From Candidatus Tectimicrobiota bacterium (GTDB lineage: Bacteria > JACPSX01): 5,136 nt of DNA. Each line of letters starts with the position of its first letter. Within the stretch, counting starts at the first letter, position 1. A program made the translations under genes and the position numbers. The stretch lies in assembly GCA_016193065.1 (NCBI GenBank), contig JACPSX010000178.1:4250-9385 (forward strand). The letters are read 5' to 3'. Below the pieces are notes generated by a model, which did no database searches, was not told the origin of the DNA, and saw only the letters and a list, made by a program, of their open reading frames with translations. Below are positions 1 to 5,136 of this stretch, piece by piece.

Positions 1-563
1 TTCCGGGCCTCATGGCGAGCCCCCTGGGAGCGGCCCTGCACTGGATCTACATCGCGACCGGATTCTCCGGTGCCGTCATGGCGATCCTGGGGGCCGTGGC
101 GCTGCTCGTCCGCCGCCTCACCGACCAGGAGATCAGGACCTACACGACGCCCGGCGATCTTTTCAACCTCTGCTTTTTCATCATCTCTCTCGGGTGTCTC
201 TTCGCGGGCTTTCTCCTGAAGGGCCCGGATTCCCCGAGCACCGTAGCCTTTGCCCAGGCCGTCCTGACCTTCGACACCGGCGTAAAGATCCCCGGACTGC
301 TCGCCGTGGGCTTGATCCTTTCGGCCCTCCTGATCGCGTACATCCCCTTCACCCACATGTCCCACTTCATCGGGAAGTATTTCACCTACCACTCAGTCCG
401 TTGGGACGACCGCCCCGTCCTGCCGGGGGGAAAGCTGGAGAGGAAGCTGGCCGAGTACCTGACCTACCGGCCCACCTGGAGTGCAGCACACGTCGGCGCC
501 GACGGCTCGAAAACCTGGGCAGAGGTGGCCACGGTCAACCCCAGGCGGGAGACGAAGCCATGA
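1..563 (+). CDS. NarI/DsrM/TmcC-like membrane cytochrome b subunit, 3' part (5' truncated by window edge)
   Basis: This is the C-terminal part of an integral-membrane cytochrome b of the nitrate reductase gamma (NarI) type, as found in DsrM, TmcC and HmeC. Such subunits bind haem b and exchange electrons with the quinone pool. Numbering from the Met at 12, hydrophobic segments lie near residues 8-33, 50-69 and 93-112. The third runs into a THMSHF motif (His115, His118), typical of haem-ligating histidines in this family; His10 in the first segment may be another ligand. A hydrophilic tail (about 124-183) follows and would face the cytoplasm and the next protein. The frame is open upstream of the Met at 12 to the window edge, no good ribosome binding site precedes that Met, and the family usually has about five helices, so the true start lies outside. 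The stop overlaps the next start (ATGA, 560-563), which implies translational coupling. The family is clear; the exact subgroup is not. Confidence 0.85.
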   Translation, partial: PGLMASPLGAALHWIYIATGFSGAVMAILGAVALLVRRLTDQEIRTYTTPGDLFNLCFFIISLGCLFAGFLLKGPDSPSTVAFAQAVLTFDTGVKIPGLLAVGLILSALLIAYIPFTHMSHFIGKYFTYHSVRWDDRPVLPGGKLERKLAEYLTYRPTWSAAHVGADGSKTWAEVATVNPRRETKP

Positions 564-2167
564 AGGGGAAGATCAGGCTCAAGGATCTGTCCCGGAGGGA
601 TCGCCGTCCCCTGGTCCATCTGGAGAACCGCGACCTGATGCCTCTCCCGCCCCCCTTGGACGACCCCGCCGTGGACCCGCCATGGGCCCCCCTTGCGGAC
701 CGGGCCCGGGAAAAGTACGAGTGCTCCCTGGACGACACCTGCGCCGTGAACGTGCCGCAGCCGAAGAGCCCGGAAGAAGAGTGGGAGCTGGTCCTCAAGT
801 TTCTCTCGGGACTGCAAAAGCTCTTCACCCGGGAAAACAACTGGACCTTTCTCCAACCCCTTCTCCTCACCATGGAGCACTGCGCCAAGTGCCAGACCTG
901 CTCCAAGGCCTGCCATATCTTCGAAGCCAGCGGGAACAACGAACTCTACCGTCCCACCTACCGTTCCGAGGTCATGCGCCGCCTCTACTTCAAGTACGTC
1001 AAGCACGGCGGCCTGCTCTCCGCCTGGCAGCACGGTGACATCCACCTGAACTGGCCTCTGGTAGCCCGCCTCATCGAGCTCTCCTACCGCTGCAACCTCT
1101 GCCGCCGCTGCGCCCAGACCTGCCCCATCGGCGCGGACAACGGCCTCGTGGCCCACGAGCTCCGCAAGCTGTTCAGCATGGAGATGGGAATAGCCCCCCG
1201 GGAGATCCACGACAACGGCTCCATGCTCCAAATCCGGGTCGGTTCCTCCACGGGGATGAACCCCACGGTGGTCAAGGACAACATAGCATTCATCGACGAG
1301 GACATGAGCGAGCGGACCGGCATCCCGGTGGAGACTCCCTGGGACGTGGAGGGCGCCGACGTGCTCCTGATCCACAATGCCGGCGAGATCATGGCCTGGC
1401 CGGAGAACCCCGGCGCCTTCGCCCTGATCCTCAACGCGGCCGGGATCCGCTGGACCCTGTCCTCCGAGCTCGCGGGCTACGACGCCATCAACTATGGGCT
1501 CTGGTATGACGACGCCCAGTTCGCCCGGGTGGCCCTAAGTCACGCCGAGATCGTCAGGAAACTCAAGGTCAAGAAGATCATCCTGGGAGAGTGCGGGCAC
1601 GCCCACAAGGCCCTGTCCGTGGTCGCGGACCGCCTTCTCACAGGCGGCCTGAACATCCCCCGGGAGAGCTCCATGACGCTTCTGCGGGACATCGTCATGA
1701 ACGGCCGTCTCAAGCTGGACCCCGGCCGCAACAACTTCCCCGTGACGCTCCATGACCCCTGCAACATGGTGCGGCTCATGGGGGTCGTGGAGCCCCAGAG
1801 GGAGATCCTCCGCAAGATCTGCCCCCGGTTCCGGGAGATGGAGCCTCACGGAGTGGACAACTACTGCTGCTGCGGGGGGAGCGGATTCGCCATCATAAGC
1901 GGCCACAATGTCCCCGACTGGCGCTTCCACGTCTCCGGGCGCAAGAAGCTCCAGCAGATCCTCAGCGCCTTCGCAGATTGCCTGGAGCCCGAAACGCCCA
2001 AGTACGTGTGCGCCCCGTGCAGCAACTGCAAGGGACAGTTCCGGGACCTGCTGGCCTACTATGACCTGTGGGAAAAGAACCGGATCCTGTACGGAGGCTT
2101 GGCGGAACTCATCGTGAACGCCATGGCGGATGTGAAACCGGGCTATATCGAATGGGAATGGCGGTAG
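560..2167 (+). CDS. DsrK/TmcB/HdrD-like iron-sulfur protein (CCG-domain oxidoreductase subunit)
   Basis: This 535-residue protein has no signal peptide or membrane segment and should sit on the cytoplasmic face, docked to the preceding cytochrome b. Two ferredoxin motifs are visible: C108-x2-C111-x2-C114-x3-C118 and C178-x2-C181-x2-C184-x3-C188-P, each expected to bind a 4Fe-4S cluster. The C-terminal half has the cysteine pattern of the heterodisulfide reductase CCG region: GECGHA (C345), HDPC (C401), the CCCGG core (C436-C438) and CAPCSNCKGQ (C484, C487, C490). In HdrD and DsrK this region holds a special 4Fe-4S cluster that works on disulfides or related sulfur substrates. The start at 560 is chosen because it overlaps the upstream stop and has GGGAG at 547-551, 8 nt upstream. 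The same frame is open back to an ATG at 194, but that stretch only shadows the upstream gene. The order cytochrome b then CCG protein matches dsrMK and hdrED-type pairs, but no dsrJ, O or P follows, so this is probably not a canonical Dsr complex. The substrate is unknown. Confidence 0.9.
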   Translation: MKGKIRLKDLSRRDRRPLVHLENRDLMPLPPPLDDPAVDPPWAPLADRAREKYECSLDDTCAVNVPQPKSPEEEWELVLKFLSGLQKLFTRENNWTFLQPLLLTMEHCAKCQTCSKACHIFEASGNNELYRPTYRSEVMRRLYFKYVKHGGLLSAWQHGDIHLNWPLVARLIELSYRCNLCRRCAQTCPIGADNGLVAHELRKLFSMEMGIAPREIHDNGSMLQIRVGSSTGMNPTVVKDNIAFIDEDMSERTGIPVETPWDVEGADVLLIHNAGEIMAWPENPGAFALILNAAGIRWTLSSELAGYDAINYGLWYDDAQFARVALSHAEIVRKLKVKKIILGECGHAHKALSVVADRLLTGGLNIPRESSMTLLRDIVMNGRLKLDPGRNNFPVTLHDPCNMVRLMGVVEPQREILRKICPRFREMEPHGVDNYCCCGGSGFAIISGHNVPDWRFHVSGRKKLQQILSAFADCLEPETPKYVCAPCSNCKGQFRDLLAYYDLWEKNRILYGGLAELIVNAMADVKPGYIEWEWR

Positions 2168-2182
2168 CAAATTGCTGAAAAA

Positions 2183-2225
2183 CCCTCCGTTCACCCTTCG
2201 ACCAGGCTCAGGGCGAACGGAAGGG
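2183..2225. repeat. REP-like palindromic element, copy A
   Basis: The core at 2187-2220 is an imperfect palindrome. CCGTTC (2187-2192) pairs with GAACGG (2215-2220), and CCC (2194-2196) pairs with GGG (2211-2213) around a loop containing TTCGA and GCTCA. The outer stem extends by CCCT (2183-2186) against AGGG (2222-2225) with one bulged A. Its reverse complement aligns with copy B at 2250-2283. No T-run follows the stem, so it is not a classical intrinsic terminator, though a stable RNA hairpin here could still protect or attenuate the transcript. Similar palindromes are, from memory, widespread in environmental bacterial genomes. Confidence 0.75.
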
Positions 2226-2249
2226 AGTCCCGAAACAGCTCATGATTTT

Positions 2250-2283
2250 CCGTTCGTGGTGAGCTCGTCGAACCACGAAAAGG
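2250..2283. repeat. REP-like palindromic element, copy B (opposite orientation to A)
   Basis: The stem is a perfect 8-bp inverted repeat, TTCGTGGT (2253-2260) with ACCACGAA (2272-2279), around an 11-nt loop. The order CCGTTCG, variable triplet, TGAGC, spacer, TCGAA, variable triplet matches the reverse complement of copy A. The triplets flanking the loop differ in a paired way: CCC/GGG in A, TGG/CCA in B. The elements lie 29 nt apart between the cores and together fill most of the gap before cobA, a doublet arrangement like BIME-type REP pairs. Confidence 0.75.
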
Positions 2284-2323
2284 ACCTTTTCCGCGACCTG
2301 TTAGTCGGATCCGGAGGTGGAAG

Positions 2324-3166
2324 ATGAGTCAAGTTCCCGTCCCAGAAGGATCGAAGGGAAACCACCCTGCGGCAAACGGTACCGGGAAAGTGTTCCTGGT
2401 GGGGGCGGGACCAGGGGATCCAGACCTTCTCACACTCAAGGGGAAACGCTGCCTGGAAGTCGCCGATGTGGTCGTCTACGACGCTCTAGTGGATAAAGGG
2501 CTTCTCGATTTCTGCCGCCCCGGCGCCCGCCGTATCTATGCGGGCAAGCGGGACGGATACCACAGCCGCCCTCAGGAGGAGATCAATGAGATCCTGATCC
2601 GCGAAGCCCGAGCCGGTCGTACCGTGGTCCGGCTCAAGGGCGGCGATCCGTTCATCTTCGGTCGCGGTGGAGAGGAAGCGCAGGCGCTCGCTGAAGCAGG
2701 GATCCCCTTTGAAGTGGTCCCGGGCGTCAGCGCCGGAATTGCAGCGCCGGCCTACGCGGGTATCCCGCTCACCCACCGGGACTTCACCCCCGAGGTGACG
2801 TTTCTTACGGGGCACGAGAGTTCCCAAAGGGAAGTGTCGGCAATCCAGTGGGACAGGCACGCTCGCGGATCCGGCACGCTGGTCATCTTCATGGGGCTCC
2901 ACAACCTCCGGAAGATCACGGACGCATTAATGGAGTATGGCCGCAGTCCGGCCTGCCCCGTGGCCGTAATCCAATGCGGCACCACGGCAAGGCAGATCAC
3001 TGTCGTAGGGACTCTGGCGGAGATTGCCGAGCAGGTGGAGGCCGCCGGCCTGGAACCACCAGCCCTCATCGTGGTTGGAGAGGTGGTCAGGCTGCGGGAA
3101 ATTCTGCAGTGGTTCCCGGAAAAGGAACCTCTCAACGCGGCGCTCCGGACGGACTCGGAGGAATGA
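2324..3166 (+). CDS. cobA: Uroporphyrinogen-III C-methyltransferase (SUMT)
   Basis: SUMT transfers two methyl groups from S-adenosylmethionine to uroporphyrinogen III at C2 and C7, giving precorrin-2, the branch-point to siroheme, cobalamin, haem d1 and siroheme-derived haem. The cytoplasmic 280-residue protein carries the family signatures in order: VGAGPGDPDLLTLK (residues 26-39), RLKGGDPFIFGRGGEEA (103-119), EVVPGVSAG (130-138), PAYAGIPLTHR (142-152), IFMGLHNL (188-195) and PALIVVGEVV (246-255). It is the stand-alone methyltransferase: there is no CysG-type dehydrogenase/chelatase domain and no uroporphyrinogen-III synthase fusion. About 20 residues precede the first conserved strand, which is slightly long. 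The start at 2324 is supported by GGAGG at 2313-2317, 6 nt upstream. It lies between an electron-transfer pair and a cytochrome c gene, 44 nt before the cytochrome, so co-transcription with the downstream genes is likely. Its function is secure; which tetrapyrrole it serves here is inference. Confidence 0.95.
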   Translation: MSQVPVPEGSKGNHPAANGTGKVFLVGAGPGDPDLLTLKGKRCLEVADVVVYDALVDKGLLDFCRPGARRIYAGKRDGYHSRPQEEINEILIREARAGRTVVRLKGGDPFIFGRGGEEAQALAEAGIPFEVVPGVSAGIAAPAYAGIPLTHRDFTPEVTFLTGHESSQREVSAIQWDRHARGSGTLVIFMGLHNLRKITDALMEYGRSPACPVAVIQCGTTARQITVVGTLAEIAEQVEAAGLEPPALIVVGEVVRLREILQWFPEKEPLNAALRTDSEE

Positions 3167-3200: not shown

Positions 3201-3205
3201 AGGAG
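3201..3205 (+). promoter_or_regulatory. Ribosome binding site of the multihaem cytochrome gene
   Basis: AGGAG lies 5 nt before the ATG at 3211, inside a longer purine run (3198-3206). It fixes the translation start upstream of the signal peptide. The alternative GTG start at 3421, beyond the in-frame TGA, has only a weak GGGA-type match upstream. This supports one long product rather than a separately initiated downstream protein. Confidence 0.8.
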
Positions 3206-3210
3206 ATACC

Positions 3211-4443
3211 ATGCGCCGACTGATTTGGCTCTTTTTCCTACCCGCGTCGTTATTTCTGCTGGCCGCGGTGCCACAAGCCGCGGAGCAGTGCATTACCTGC
3301 CATACGAATCCGGCCAAGCTCCAGGCGCTGATCCGGCCTCCGGCAGAGATTGCCCAGGAAGAAGGCGAGGGCTGAGCGGCGCCCATCCCCCGGTCGGGGG
3401 AGCTCTGGGAACGGGTCCTGGTGAACCCGGAGTTTCTGAAATCCACCCATGCCCAACCCGGCTGCAGCGGCTGCCACGGCGGTGACCCGCGTGCCACCGA
3501 CAAGGACAAAGCTCACGACCAGCGGGTCCGCGCCCCCTCGGACGCCATGGAGAAGCAGTGCGGGATCTGCCACGCCAATGTGGTGAAGACGTACCGCACG
3601 TCCCTGCACTTCACCACCCGGGGCTACGACACGGTCATGCAGGCCAAGAGCGGATCCAGATGGGAACAGGTGGAGCCCATCGTGCAGCAGGCGTGTCACA
3701 GGTGCCATGCCAGTTGTGGGGACTGCCACGTGCGCTGGCCTGCCGCCGCCGAGGGCGGTTTGCTGAAAGGGCACCTGTTCGTGAAAGAGCCACCGGTAGA
3801 GTCCACCTGCAACGGCTGCCACAGCGGCCGGGTCAGCCCGGAGTACTTCGGCTGGAACGCCAGCCAGCCGGCCGACGTCCACTGGAACAAGGCAAAGATG
3901 GGCTGCACGGCCTGCCACGAGGTAAAGGATCTCCACGGAGACGGGACGCCGTATCGGTACCGGTTGGATCGGTCTTCACAGCCCCGCTGCCTGAGCTGCC
4001 ACCCGCAGGCCGCGCCGGGTAAGTCCGTCGTGGAGGCTCACAACGTGCATGGGGAGAAACTGGAATGCCACGTCTGTCACTCGGTCAAGTACGTCAACTG
4101 TTACGGCTGTCACCTGGGCAAGGGGGCCCGCTCCGAACTGGACTTTCGCATCGGGCTGAACCTGCGCAAGGACCGCCCTTACGTTTACAACCTGGTGCGG
4201 CACGCCCCCACGACGCGGGAGATGCTAGAGACCCGAGTAGCCGACGCCCTGCCAAATTACGATGACTTCCCCACCTGGCTGCCGGCCTTCCCGCACAACA
4301 TCCAGCGGGTGACGCCGCAGAACAGGACCTGCAATAGTTGTCATGGAAGCGCGGAATTGTTCCTGCTGCAAGACAAGCTCGATCCGCGGTATCCAAAGGC
4401 AAACGCCAAGGCGGCGATCTCCCGGATACCGCCGAAACGGTGA
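3211..4443 (+). CDS. Exported 11-haem c-type cytochrome, candidate selenoprotein with in-frame UGA at codon 55 (ExtKL-like)
   Basis: One continuous frame of 410 codons, interrupted only by TGA at codon 55, encodes an extracytoplasmic multihaem cytochrome. Residues 1-24 form a Sec-type signal peptide (MRR, hydrophobic core, cleavage near Ala23/Ala24) with no lipobox. Eleven CxxCH haem sites begin at Cys27, 85, 117, 162, 169, 200, 232, 260, 286, 297 and 374. The first precedes the TGA and ten follow it. Two sites (162 and 169) are separated by only two residues. Further histidines, such as His80, 133, 224, 242, 277 and 280, could be distal haem ligands. The C-terminal part after the TGA has no signal peptide of its own, so made alone it would not reach the periplasm where haem is attached. 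A SECIS-like hairpin follows the TGA, so selenocysteine is the favoured reading; a nonsense mutation or sequencing error is the alternative. The partner rhodanese gene starts 35 nt downstream. From memory, Geobacter ExtKL has a comparable context; this is unverified. The role is electron transfer or terminal reduction outside the cytoplasmic membrane; the acceptor is unknown. Confidence 0.85.
3373..3375 (+). other. In-frame UGA codon, probable selenocysteine (residue 55)
   Basis: The TGA sits in the same frame as the ATG at 3211 and as all ten downstream haem motifs. The local protein context is EEGEG-U-AAPIP, a short acidic/glycine stretch followed by an Ala/Pro stretch, 24 residues after His31 of the first haem site. 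No frameshift is needed to join the two parts. A hairpin of bacterial SECIS type follows at 3382-3409. TGA also ends the genes finishing at 563, 3166 and 4443, so the codon is a normal stop elsewhere in this genome. Confidence 0.8.
3382..3409 (+). promoter_or_regulatory. Bacterial SECIS-like hairpin just downstream of the UGA
   Basis: In the mRNA, TCCCCC (3386-3391) pairs with GGGGGA (3396-3401) around a 4-nt loop GGTC (3392-3395). An outer stem CCCA (3382-3385) with TGGG (3406-3409) adds four pairs, leaving GCTC (3402-3405) as a bulge on the 3' side. The GGUC loop is the SelB-binding loop sequence of the E. coli fdhF SECIS. Here it lies 17-20 nt after the UGA, against about 19-22 in fdhF by my own count. 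Bacterial SECIS elements sit inside the coding region immediately 3' of the UGA, as here. The bulged U of the fdhF element has no obvious counterpart. Confidence 0.78.
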
Positions 4444-4478: not shown

Positions 4479-5136
4479 ATGAAGCGAGGCTCGATTCTGA
4501 CTCTGCTGGTGCTGGCGATTCTGGGGCTGGTGGGGTCAGGCTGGGCCGCGGACTATGCGCGGCCCGATCTCATCATCTCCACCGACGAGCTGGCGGGGAT
4601 CCTCACCCATCCCGAGATCAAGATCCTGGATGCGCGAGGCCCGGAGGACTACAAGGCCGGACACATAGCCGGAGCGATCCCCCTGCCGCATGGCAAGACC
4701 CAATACGTGGAGCGAGGAGTTCCGGGTGTCGTGGCGCCTGTGGAGAGGCTGGAGGGGCTTTTCGGTGAGCTGGGTATCCGGCCAACCGACACCCTAGTCC
4801 TCTACGACGATATTGTAGGTGAGCCGGTCACCCGGCTGTTTTGGACCTTTGACGTCCTGGGCCACAACAAGGTTCGGGTCTTGAACGGCGGCATGAGCAA
4901 ATGGGCGAAAGAGGGACGCCCGGTCAGCAAGGAGGAGACGGCCATCGCGCCGGCCAAATACACGGCCAAGCCGGACTGGACCAAGTTCGCGGACGCCGCC
5001 TATGTCCTGGTAAACCTGAAGAACTCTCAAGTGGCTCTGGTGGACTGCCGGGGACCGAAGGAGTGGTCAGGGGAGGTAGCCAGCCGGCAGGTAAAGCGGG
5101 CGGGCCGGATTCCCGGGGCCAAAAACGTAGACTGGG
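4479..5136 (+). CDS. Exported tandem-domain rhodanese (thiosulfate sulfurtransferase-like), 3' truncated by window edge
   Basis: This frame is open to the right edge (219 codons visible). Residues 1-23 form a signal peptide with an apparent type I site (GWA before AD) and no lipobox cysteine, so the product should be periplasmic or secreted. The first rhodanese domain (about 32-148) shows ILDARGPEDYKAGHIAGAIP (49-68), VLYDD (107-111) and VRVLNGGMSKW (132-142). The position of the catalytic cysteine holds Asp (110/111), as in the inactive N-terminal domains of two-domain sulfurtransferases of the SseA/TST type. The second domain has begun, with LVDCRGPKEWSGE (187-199) and GRIPGAKNVDW (209-219), but its active-site loop lies beyond the window, so activity cannot be judged. 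Such enzymes move sulfane sulfur from thiosulfate or other donors to a thiophilic acceptor, and some relatives act on selenium species. The gene follows the multihaem cytochrome by 35 nt with a strong ribosome binding site and is very likely co-transcribed. ExtH-like is one possible name, from memory. Confidence 0.9.
   Translation, partial: MKRGSILTLLVLAILGLVGSGWAADYARPDLIISTDELAGILTHPEIKILDARGPEDYKAGHIAGAIPLPHGKTQYVERGVPGVVAPVERLEGLFGELGIRPTDTLVLYDDIVGEPVTRLFWTFDVLGHNKVRVLNGGMSKWAKEGRPVSKEETAIAPAKYTAKPDWTKFADAAYVLVNLKNSQVALVDCRGPKEWSGEVASRQVKRAGRIPGAKNVDW

Follow-up and report, generated by a model that had tools for sequence, protein, structure and literature searches.

A widespread family of probable selenocysteine-containing eleven-haem cytochromes c, accompanied by an exported rhodanese and without cysteine counterparts

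The window analysed here, a stretch of 5,136 nt from a contig of a Candidatus Tectimicrobiota bacterium (assembly GCA_016193065.1), very probably contains a single gene encoding a secreted 11-haem c-type cytochrome in which the UGA at codon 55 specifies selenocysteine (Sec). Judging from the aligned relatives, the family extends across Chloroflexota and the lineage of the window, and predicted Sec is the rule at this position, never Cys. The UGA would be decoded by the SelA/B/C/D pathway, guided by a hairpin located about 10 nt downstream. The earlier note, made from the letters of the window, had proposed a selenoprotein in place of two genes, and this proposal was supported by the conservation of the UGA (73 of 79 members), by a covarying SECIS-type hairpin and by the presence of Sec machinery genes.

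The cytochrome gene (Table 1) comprised 54 codons, the TGA at 3373-3375 and 15 sense codons up to GTG 3421, in a single frame throughout, and ended with the TGA at 4441-4443 after ten further CxxCH motifs 3' of the internal UGA. The two pieces had been described as lying in the same frame and being split by a single TGA, which was exact, with 410 residues in one frame. The ORF starting at GTG 3421 begins MNPEFLKSTHAQPGCSGCH and possessed no export signal, as had also been stated for the downstream part, while the 15 codons from TGA to GTG, previously considered plausible protein, encoded residues that are conserved in the relatives. Within the window, TGA terminated the DsrM-like gene as well as cobA, confirming its description as a normal stop there, and is therefore not a general sense codon in this DNA.

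Table 1. Features of the window (positions in nt from its first base).
Feature	Position	Strand	Remarks and basis
NarI/DsrM-like membrane cytochrome b	1..563	+	Starts before the window; PF02665, E 3.5e-10
DsrK-like iron-sulfur protein, second copy	560..2167	+	NF045796, 311 bits, under the cut-off of 400
cobA-type uroporphyrinogen-III C-methyltransferase (sirohaem branch)	2324..3166	+	NCBIfam TIGR01469, 322 bits, cut-off 185
Shine-Dalgarno-like AGGAG	3201..3205	+	5 nt 5' of ATG 3211; read from the sequence
Selenocytochrome gene (predicted)	3211..4443	+	410-residue exported 11-haem c-type cytochrome with one internal UGA; 78 relatives aligned
N-terminal signal peptide MRRLIWLFFLPASLFLLAAVPQAA	3211..3282	+	Predicted by eye from the sequence; cleavage expected near residue 24
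Haem-binding motif 1, CITCH, residues 27-31	3289..3303	+	Sole CxxCH before the UGA
In-frame UGA, predicted selenocysteine 55, motif G-E-G-U-A-A	3373..3375	+	UGA column in 73/79 members
SECIS-type hairpin UCCCCC-GGUC-GGGGGA	3386..3401	+	Loop start 16 nt 3' of the UGA; consistent with the bacterial SECIS model (PMC13188914)
Haem-binding motifs 2-11	3463..4344	+	CxxCH starts at residues 85, 117, 162, 169, 200, 232, 260, 286, 297 and 374
Exported two-domain rhodanese	4479..5136	+	Runs off the contig end; Pfam PF00581, E 6e-21

Overall, 78 relatives of the window protein were recovered, mostly from Chloroflexota, with identities between 36% and 85% (mostly 36-45% for the UGA-bearing proteins). A scan of genome contigs yielded a protein from a groundwater Chloroflexi MAG (L021) that was 82% identical and had TGA at the same codon. 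Twelve further full-length relatives, all with TGA, were obtained when 400 genomes of the L021 phylum were searched with a profile. Another 65 distinct proteins came from one class sampled with 396 genomes, about 67 of which possessed full-length UGA-bearing copies. The search for relatives around the assembly of the window at the genus, order, class and phylum levels returned only this assembly itself, and none were found among viral contigs and plasmids.

The 79 distinct proteins (window protein and relatives) were aligned and examined codon by codon. At the column of window residue 55, TGA was present in 73 of them, that is, in 72 of the 78 relatives, and Cys in none (0/79); the earlier note had asked for this residue to be compared in close homologues. 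The surrounding motif across the family was G-x-G-U-[GA]-[GA]. All eleven CxxCH motifs were conserved, each in at least 78 of the 79 members, and the reading frame across the UGA was maintained in every member. The six remaining members (L087 to L092) had W, L, H, V, F and V, respectively, at the Sec column. Synonymous conservation between L021 and the window was below average 3' of the UGA, yet this was not the minimum of the gene, and it was not counted as evidence. Three remoter multihaem cytochromes (L035, L132 and L133) lacked the Sec-bearing linker after haem 1.

Concerning the RNA level, the bacterial SECIS model describes a stem of 4-16 bp, a loop of 3-9 nt with a G in its first two bases, and a spacing of 16-37 nt from the UGA (PMC13188914). 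The window hairpin agreed with this model (6 bp, GGUC loop, 16 nt), with its stem starting about 10 nt 3' of the UGA in a register shifted relative to the family stem. By itself it was not unusual for GC-rich DNA (z = 0.52), half of the synonymous recodings reaching a 6-bp stem, and the SECIS evidence is therefore taken at the family level. The 42 nt from the UGA on could be aligned without gaps across the family, the 6-bp stem corresponding to columns 15-20 with 24-29. In this stem, 94% of the cells were paired and 20 cells were changed on both sides, compared to 5.1 in shuffles; its covariation was 0.296 compared to 0.093 in shuffles, a value reached by none of 500 shuffles, and sliding the stem partner by 1-3 columns destroyed the signal. 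Two-sided changes occurred at four stem pairs, for example from C-G to G-C in 12 sequences. The encoded peptide also covaries with the stem (A-PLE-P versus P-PLE-A, P-PLE-G and P-PLE-V), and RNA and protein constraints were separated by synonymous recoding of the same peptides: all six pairs were formed in 68 of 74 real sequences but in only 2.5% of the synonymous recodings. G was the first loop base in 65 of 66 cases. The hairpin decays where the UGA is lost, the five scored non-Sec members (L092 left out) having 6, 5, 4, 3 and 2 of the 6 pairs.

The exported rhodanese encoded beside the window cytochrome has counterparts next to nearly all UGA-bearing members that could be assessed. Using a rhodanese profile built from the neighbours of the family, and counting same-strand hits up to 2.5 kb away at loci with enough flank, rhodanese domains adjoined 66 of 67 testable UGA-bearing loci (38 upstream and 28 downstream) and none of the five testable non-Sec copies (Fisher p = 4e-7, shared ancestry ignored). 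One genome (G627) possessed both kinds, a Sec copy with rhodanese domains about 1.4 kb downstream and a non-Sec copy without any nearby. The catalytic Cys was kept in 158 of 170 rhodanese domains, and at one locus (L039) rhodanese repeats and cytochrome were found in one open frame. A functional coupling of the two proteins is suggested mainly by the fact that Sec and the rhodanese were lost together.

The earlier note had stated that an unrelated sense residue in homologues would refute Sec. Such residues do occur in the six non-UGA members (W, L, H, V, V and F) and count weakly in that direction, but these members are read as Sec losses, since the neighbouring rhodanese was also lost and the hairpin progressively so. 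In L087 (genome G448), TGG (Trp) occupies the position at which the close sisters L083 and L084 carry TGA; its hairpin is intact and no rhodanese was found nearby. This is apparently a very recent Sec loss.

The Sec machinery, for which selA, selB, selC and selD had been suggested as a check, was found in part in the assembly of the window (2.9 Mb, 294 contigs, 86% complete). It contained selB (371 bits), located 269 nt away from the end of its contig, and two selD genes (L016 and L017, on contigs C120 and C175), each with an in-frame UGA, whereas selA and tRNA-Sec (selC) were not found in this 86% complete assembly. The Rfam matches examined there corresponded to Ser, Leu, Trp, Gly or Tyr tRNAs, and the Rfam scan of the sel loci gave no tRNA-Sec. 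The active-site motifs carrying the in-frame UGA differed between the two selD genes (HGAGUGCK and RCAGUAGK). The missing selA and tRNA-Sec are treated as assembly incompleteness, as selA was present in the genome of the nearest relative (L021) and in all 40 UGA-bearing genomes tested, one of them as a contig-edge fragment. This co-occurrence is weak evidence, since selA occurs widely in the genomes sampled, being matched as well in 30 of 34 without the cytochrome.

These two absences and the lack of any Cys relative were counted against the selenoprotein identity; to our knowledge, Cys relatives occur in nearly all selenoprotein families, although their presence is not a requirement. The other explanations of the UGA fare far worse. 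If the UGA were a true stop, giving two genes or a short product by programme, a secreted mini-cytochrome of 54 residues would be followed by a second gene from GTG 3421. This is very unlikely: an ORF could begin at this GTG and UGA acts as a stop elsewhere in the window, but the downstream part has neither an export signal nor a convincing ribosome site, the relatives conserve the amino acids encoded from the UGA to this GTG, and the frame is intact in all members. Insertion of Trp, Cys or Gly instead of Sec, through a code change or a suppressor tRNA, could be argued from the TGG that L087 has in place of the TGA of its sisters. This is extremely unlikely, given that UGA terminates window genes, including the cytochrome gene itself, that the hairpin is specific to UGA members, that L, H, V and F occupy the position in other non-UGA members, and that SelB and UGA-bearing selD are present. 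A nonsense mutation, sequencing error or pseudogene has nothing in its favour beyond the stop and is refuted, with a negligible probability, by the same UGA in 73 distinct members; the window gene is moreover separated from L021, at 82% identity, by many synonymous changes. Selenocysteine is the preferred reading of codon 55.

In the lineage of the window, the predicted selenocytochrome gene follows a DsrMKJOP operon. DsrK, DsrJ, DsrO and DsrP were encoded upstream of the window on contig C115 (724, 160, 308 and 459 bits, respectively, all over the NCBIfam cut-offs), and the order on the contig was DsrK/J/O/P, then the DsrM-like and DsrK-like genes, CobA, the selenocytochrome and the rhodanese. 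Two DsrK-type genes are thus present in this cluster, one at 3-1493 of the upstream locus L056 (724 bits) and one at 560-2167 of the window (311 bits, with the NarI/DsrM-like partner). A short run of N at about 4240 of L056, just before window base 1, marks a scaffold gap inside the DsrM-like gene, and the gap before cobA (window 2190-2300) contained an inverted repeat, ccgttcacccttcgaccaggctcagggcgaacgg, resembling a dispersed genomic repeat. Directly upstream of another family member, genes for a DmsA- and DmsB-like molybdoenzyme were found (L045, 2340-6180).

The AlphaFold2 model obtained with 79 alignment rows had a pLDDT of 89 and a pTM of 0.86, compared to a poor model with 14 rows (pLDDT 52), and the Sec loop was its least confident region (pLDDT 63-67). 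The best fold match by VIA was the octahaem tetrathionate reductase 1sp3 (Z 9.4, rmsd 4.1, 245 aligned), the next match having a Z of 4.4. This match spans model residues 54-387, starting at window residue 77 and thus past the Sec loop, and Foldseek gave no significant match with the predicted model. A search of solved structures using one family member found nothing.

Ten His outside the CxxCH motifs were conserved family-wide (80, 102, 133, 188, 224, 242, 277, 280, 331 and 362), against 11 haems. This difference of one in the window protein would allow Sec55 to be an axial ligand of one haem, as a ligated and not a free selenolate, and the non-Sec member L089 carries a His at the Sec column. 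Such a ligand is possible but improbable, and it is not favoured because most other members (72 of 79) have an additional His at column 161, absent from the window protein, which brings their ligands to 11 without Sec. Furthermore, the Trp, Leu, Val and Phe replacements are not ligands, and no Cys replacement was found although Cys ligates haem well.

Among known systems, the closest precedent is ExtKL, a published selenium-cytochrome of Geobacter with five haems, whose cluster includes the rhodanese ExtH and has a proposed role on selenium or tellurium oxyanions (PMC5877670). ExtKL (NF040886; GSU2937-2936) is likewise a c-type cytochrome with several haems whose coding sequence is interrupted by an in-frame UGA, with a rhodanese in its cluster, but it has five haems and belongs to another lineage, whereas the window family has 11 and other Ext genes were not recognised nearby. 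The comparison was made through the NCBI model NF040886 and not through an ExtKL sequence; this model had no match to the whole window protein at E 0.01 or to its N-terminal 106 residues at E 10, and was absent among the 25 families listed for the 79 members at E 0.1. The suggestion in the earlier note that ExtKL may be a known relative stands as a precedent for a selenium-cytochrome, but not as a match among the results listed, and ExtKL would be at best a distant cousin of the family.

Octahaem tetrathionate reductase (TIGR04315) has eight haems compared to 11 here, and besides the fold match it showed a weak profile similarity (E 5e-6): weak matches below the cut-off were obtained for 5 of the 79 members (best E 8e-6), and none for the window protein itself. 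A 2026 catalogue contains one GenBank-annotated selenoprotein under TIGR04315 (WP_331457571.1), which might be a relative of the family. The DmsE-type (TIGR03508) and GSU2203 (NF041028) decahaem cytochromes are also periplasmic multihaem proteins with weak profile similarity, at 20-40 bits against cut-offs of 190-325. The rhodanese-related (seleno)protein (NF041203) and SelD selenoproteins have standard bacterial Sec decoding as the common feature; one partner rhodanese (L047) scored over the NF041203 cut-off, but, unlike in NF041203, Sec would here be in the cytochrome, Cys being retained by the rhodanese domains. Among the results listed, the family was above none of the curated cut-offs of the NCBI models. 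Multihaem selenoproteins are already known, the 2026 catalogue including ExtKL, a GSU2204-type CXXCH protein and the single TIGR04315 entry, and the cytochrome described here appears to add a selenoprotein family.

The function may tentatively be proposed, with a little less than even confidence, to be the reduction of rhodanese-bound sulfane sulfur or of a similar chalcogen. The exported rhodanese would carry a persulfide, with sulfane sulfur bound to its catalytic Cys, and would hand this sulfur over to the cytochrome selenolate. An Se-S bond would thereby form in the loop that follows haem 1, and its cleavage by electrons from the haem chain would release sulfide. In the reverse direction, sulfide would be oxidised. 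The haem wire would be fed by the quinone pool, in the lineage of the window plausibly through the adjacent DsrMKJOP-type complex. What the comparisons themselves show is the export signal, the 11 haem sites, the conserved UGA with its selected hairpin and the rhodanese partner.

The main rival concerns the substrate, which may instead be selenite or another chalcogen oxyanion. A selenite or tellurite reductase, that is, a selenoprotein pair acting on Se or Te oxyanions with the rhodanese handling selenium, is rather unlikely. The Ext cluster likewise joins the selenocytochrome ExtKL to the rhodanese ExtH, a selenium-substituted rhodanese is cited in the same work (PMC5877670), and members were weakly similar to the ExtM and ExtN models; on the other hand, no other Ext genes were recognised in the neighbourhoods examined, no ExtKL match was obtained among the results listed, and the context in the lineage of the window is one of sulfur (DsrMKJOP, CobA). 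With sulfane sulfur retained as the proposed substrate, the broader picture, put forward with considerable doubt, would be that of a Cys-less, widespread selenoprotein family in which Sec on an 11-haem wire takes sulfane sulfur from a dedicated exported rhodanese. Outside the cytoplasm, selenolate and haems would form a relay for the reduction or oxidation of protein-bound sulfur, possibly with a haem-bound selenolate.

An ordinary gene caller would halt at the UGA, yielding a short fragment plus a cytochrome that lacks an export signal. Standard selenoprotein discovery pairs UGA with Cys in relatives (PMC13188914), and the family would escape such Cys/Sec-pair searches because it has no Cys relatives. 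This suggests that Cys-less selenoprotein families of this kind exist and can be revealed by hairpin covariation and genomic neighbourhood. The near-perfect pairing of the Sec cytochrome with a rhodanese offers a concrete partner for redox chemistry in which selenium, and not sulfur, seems to be required.
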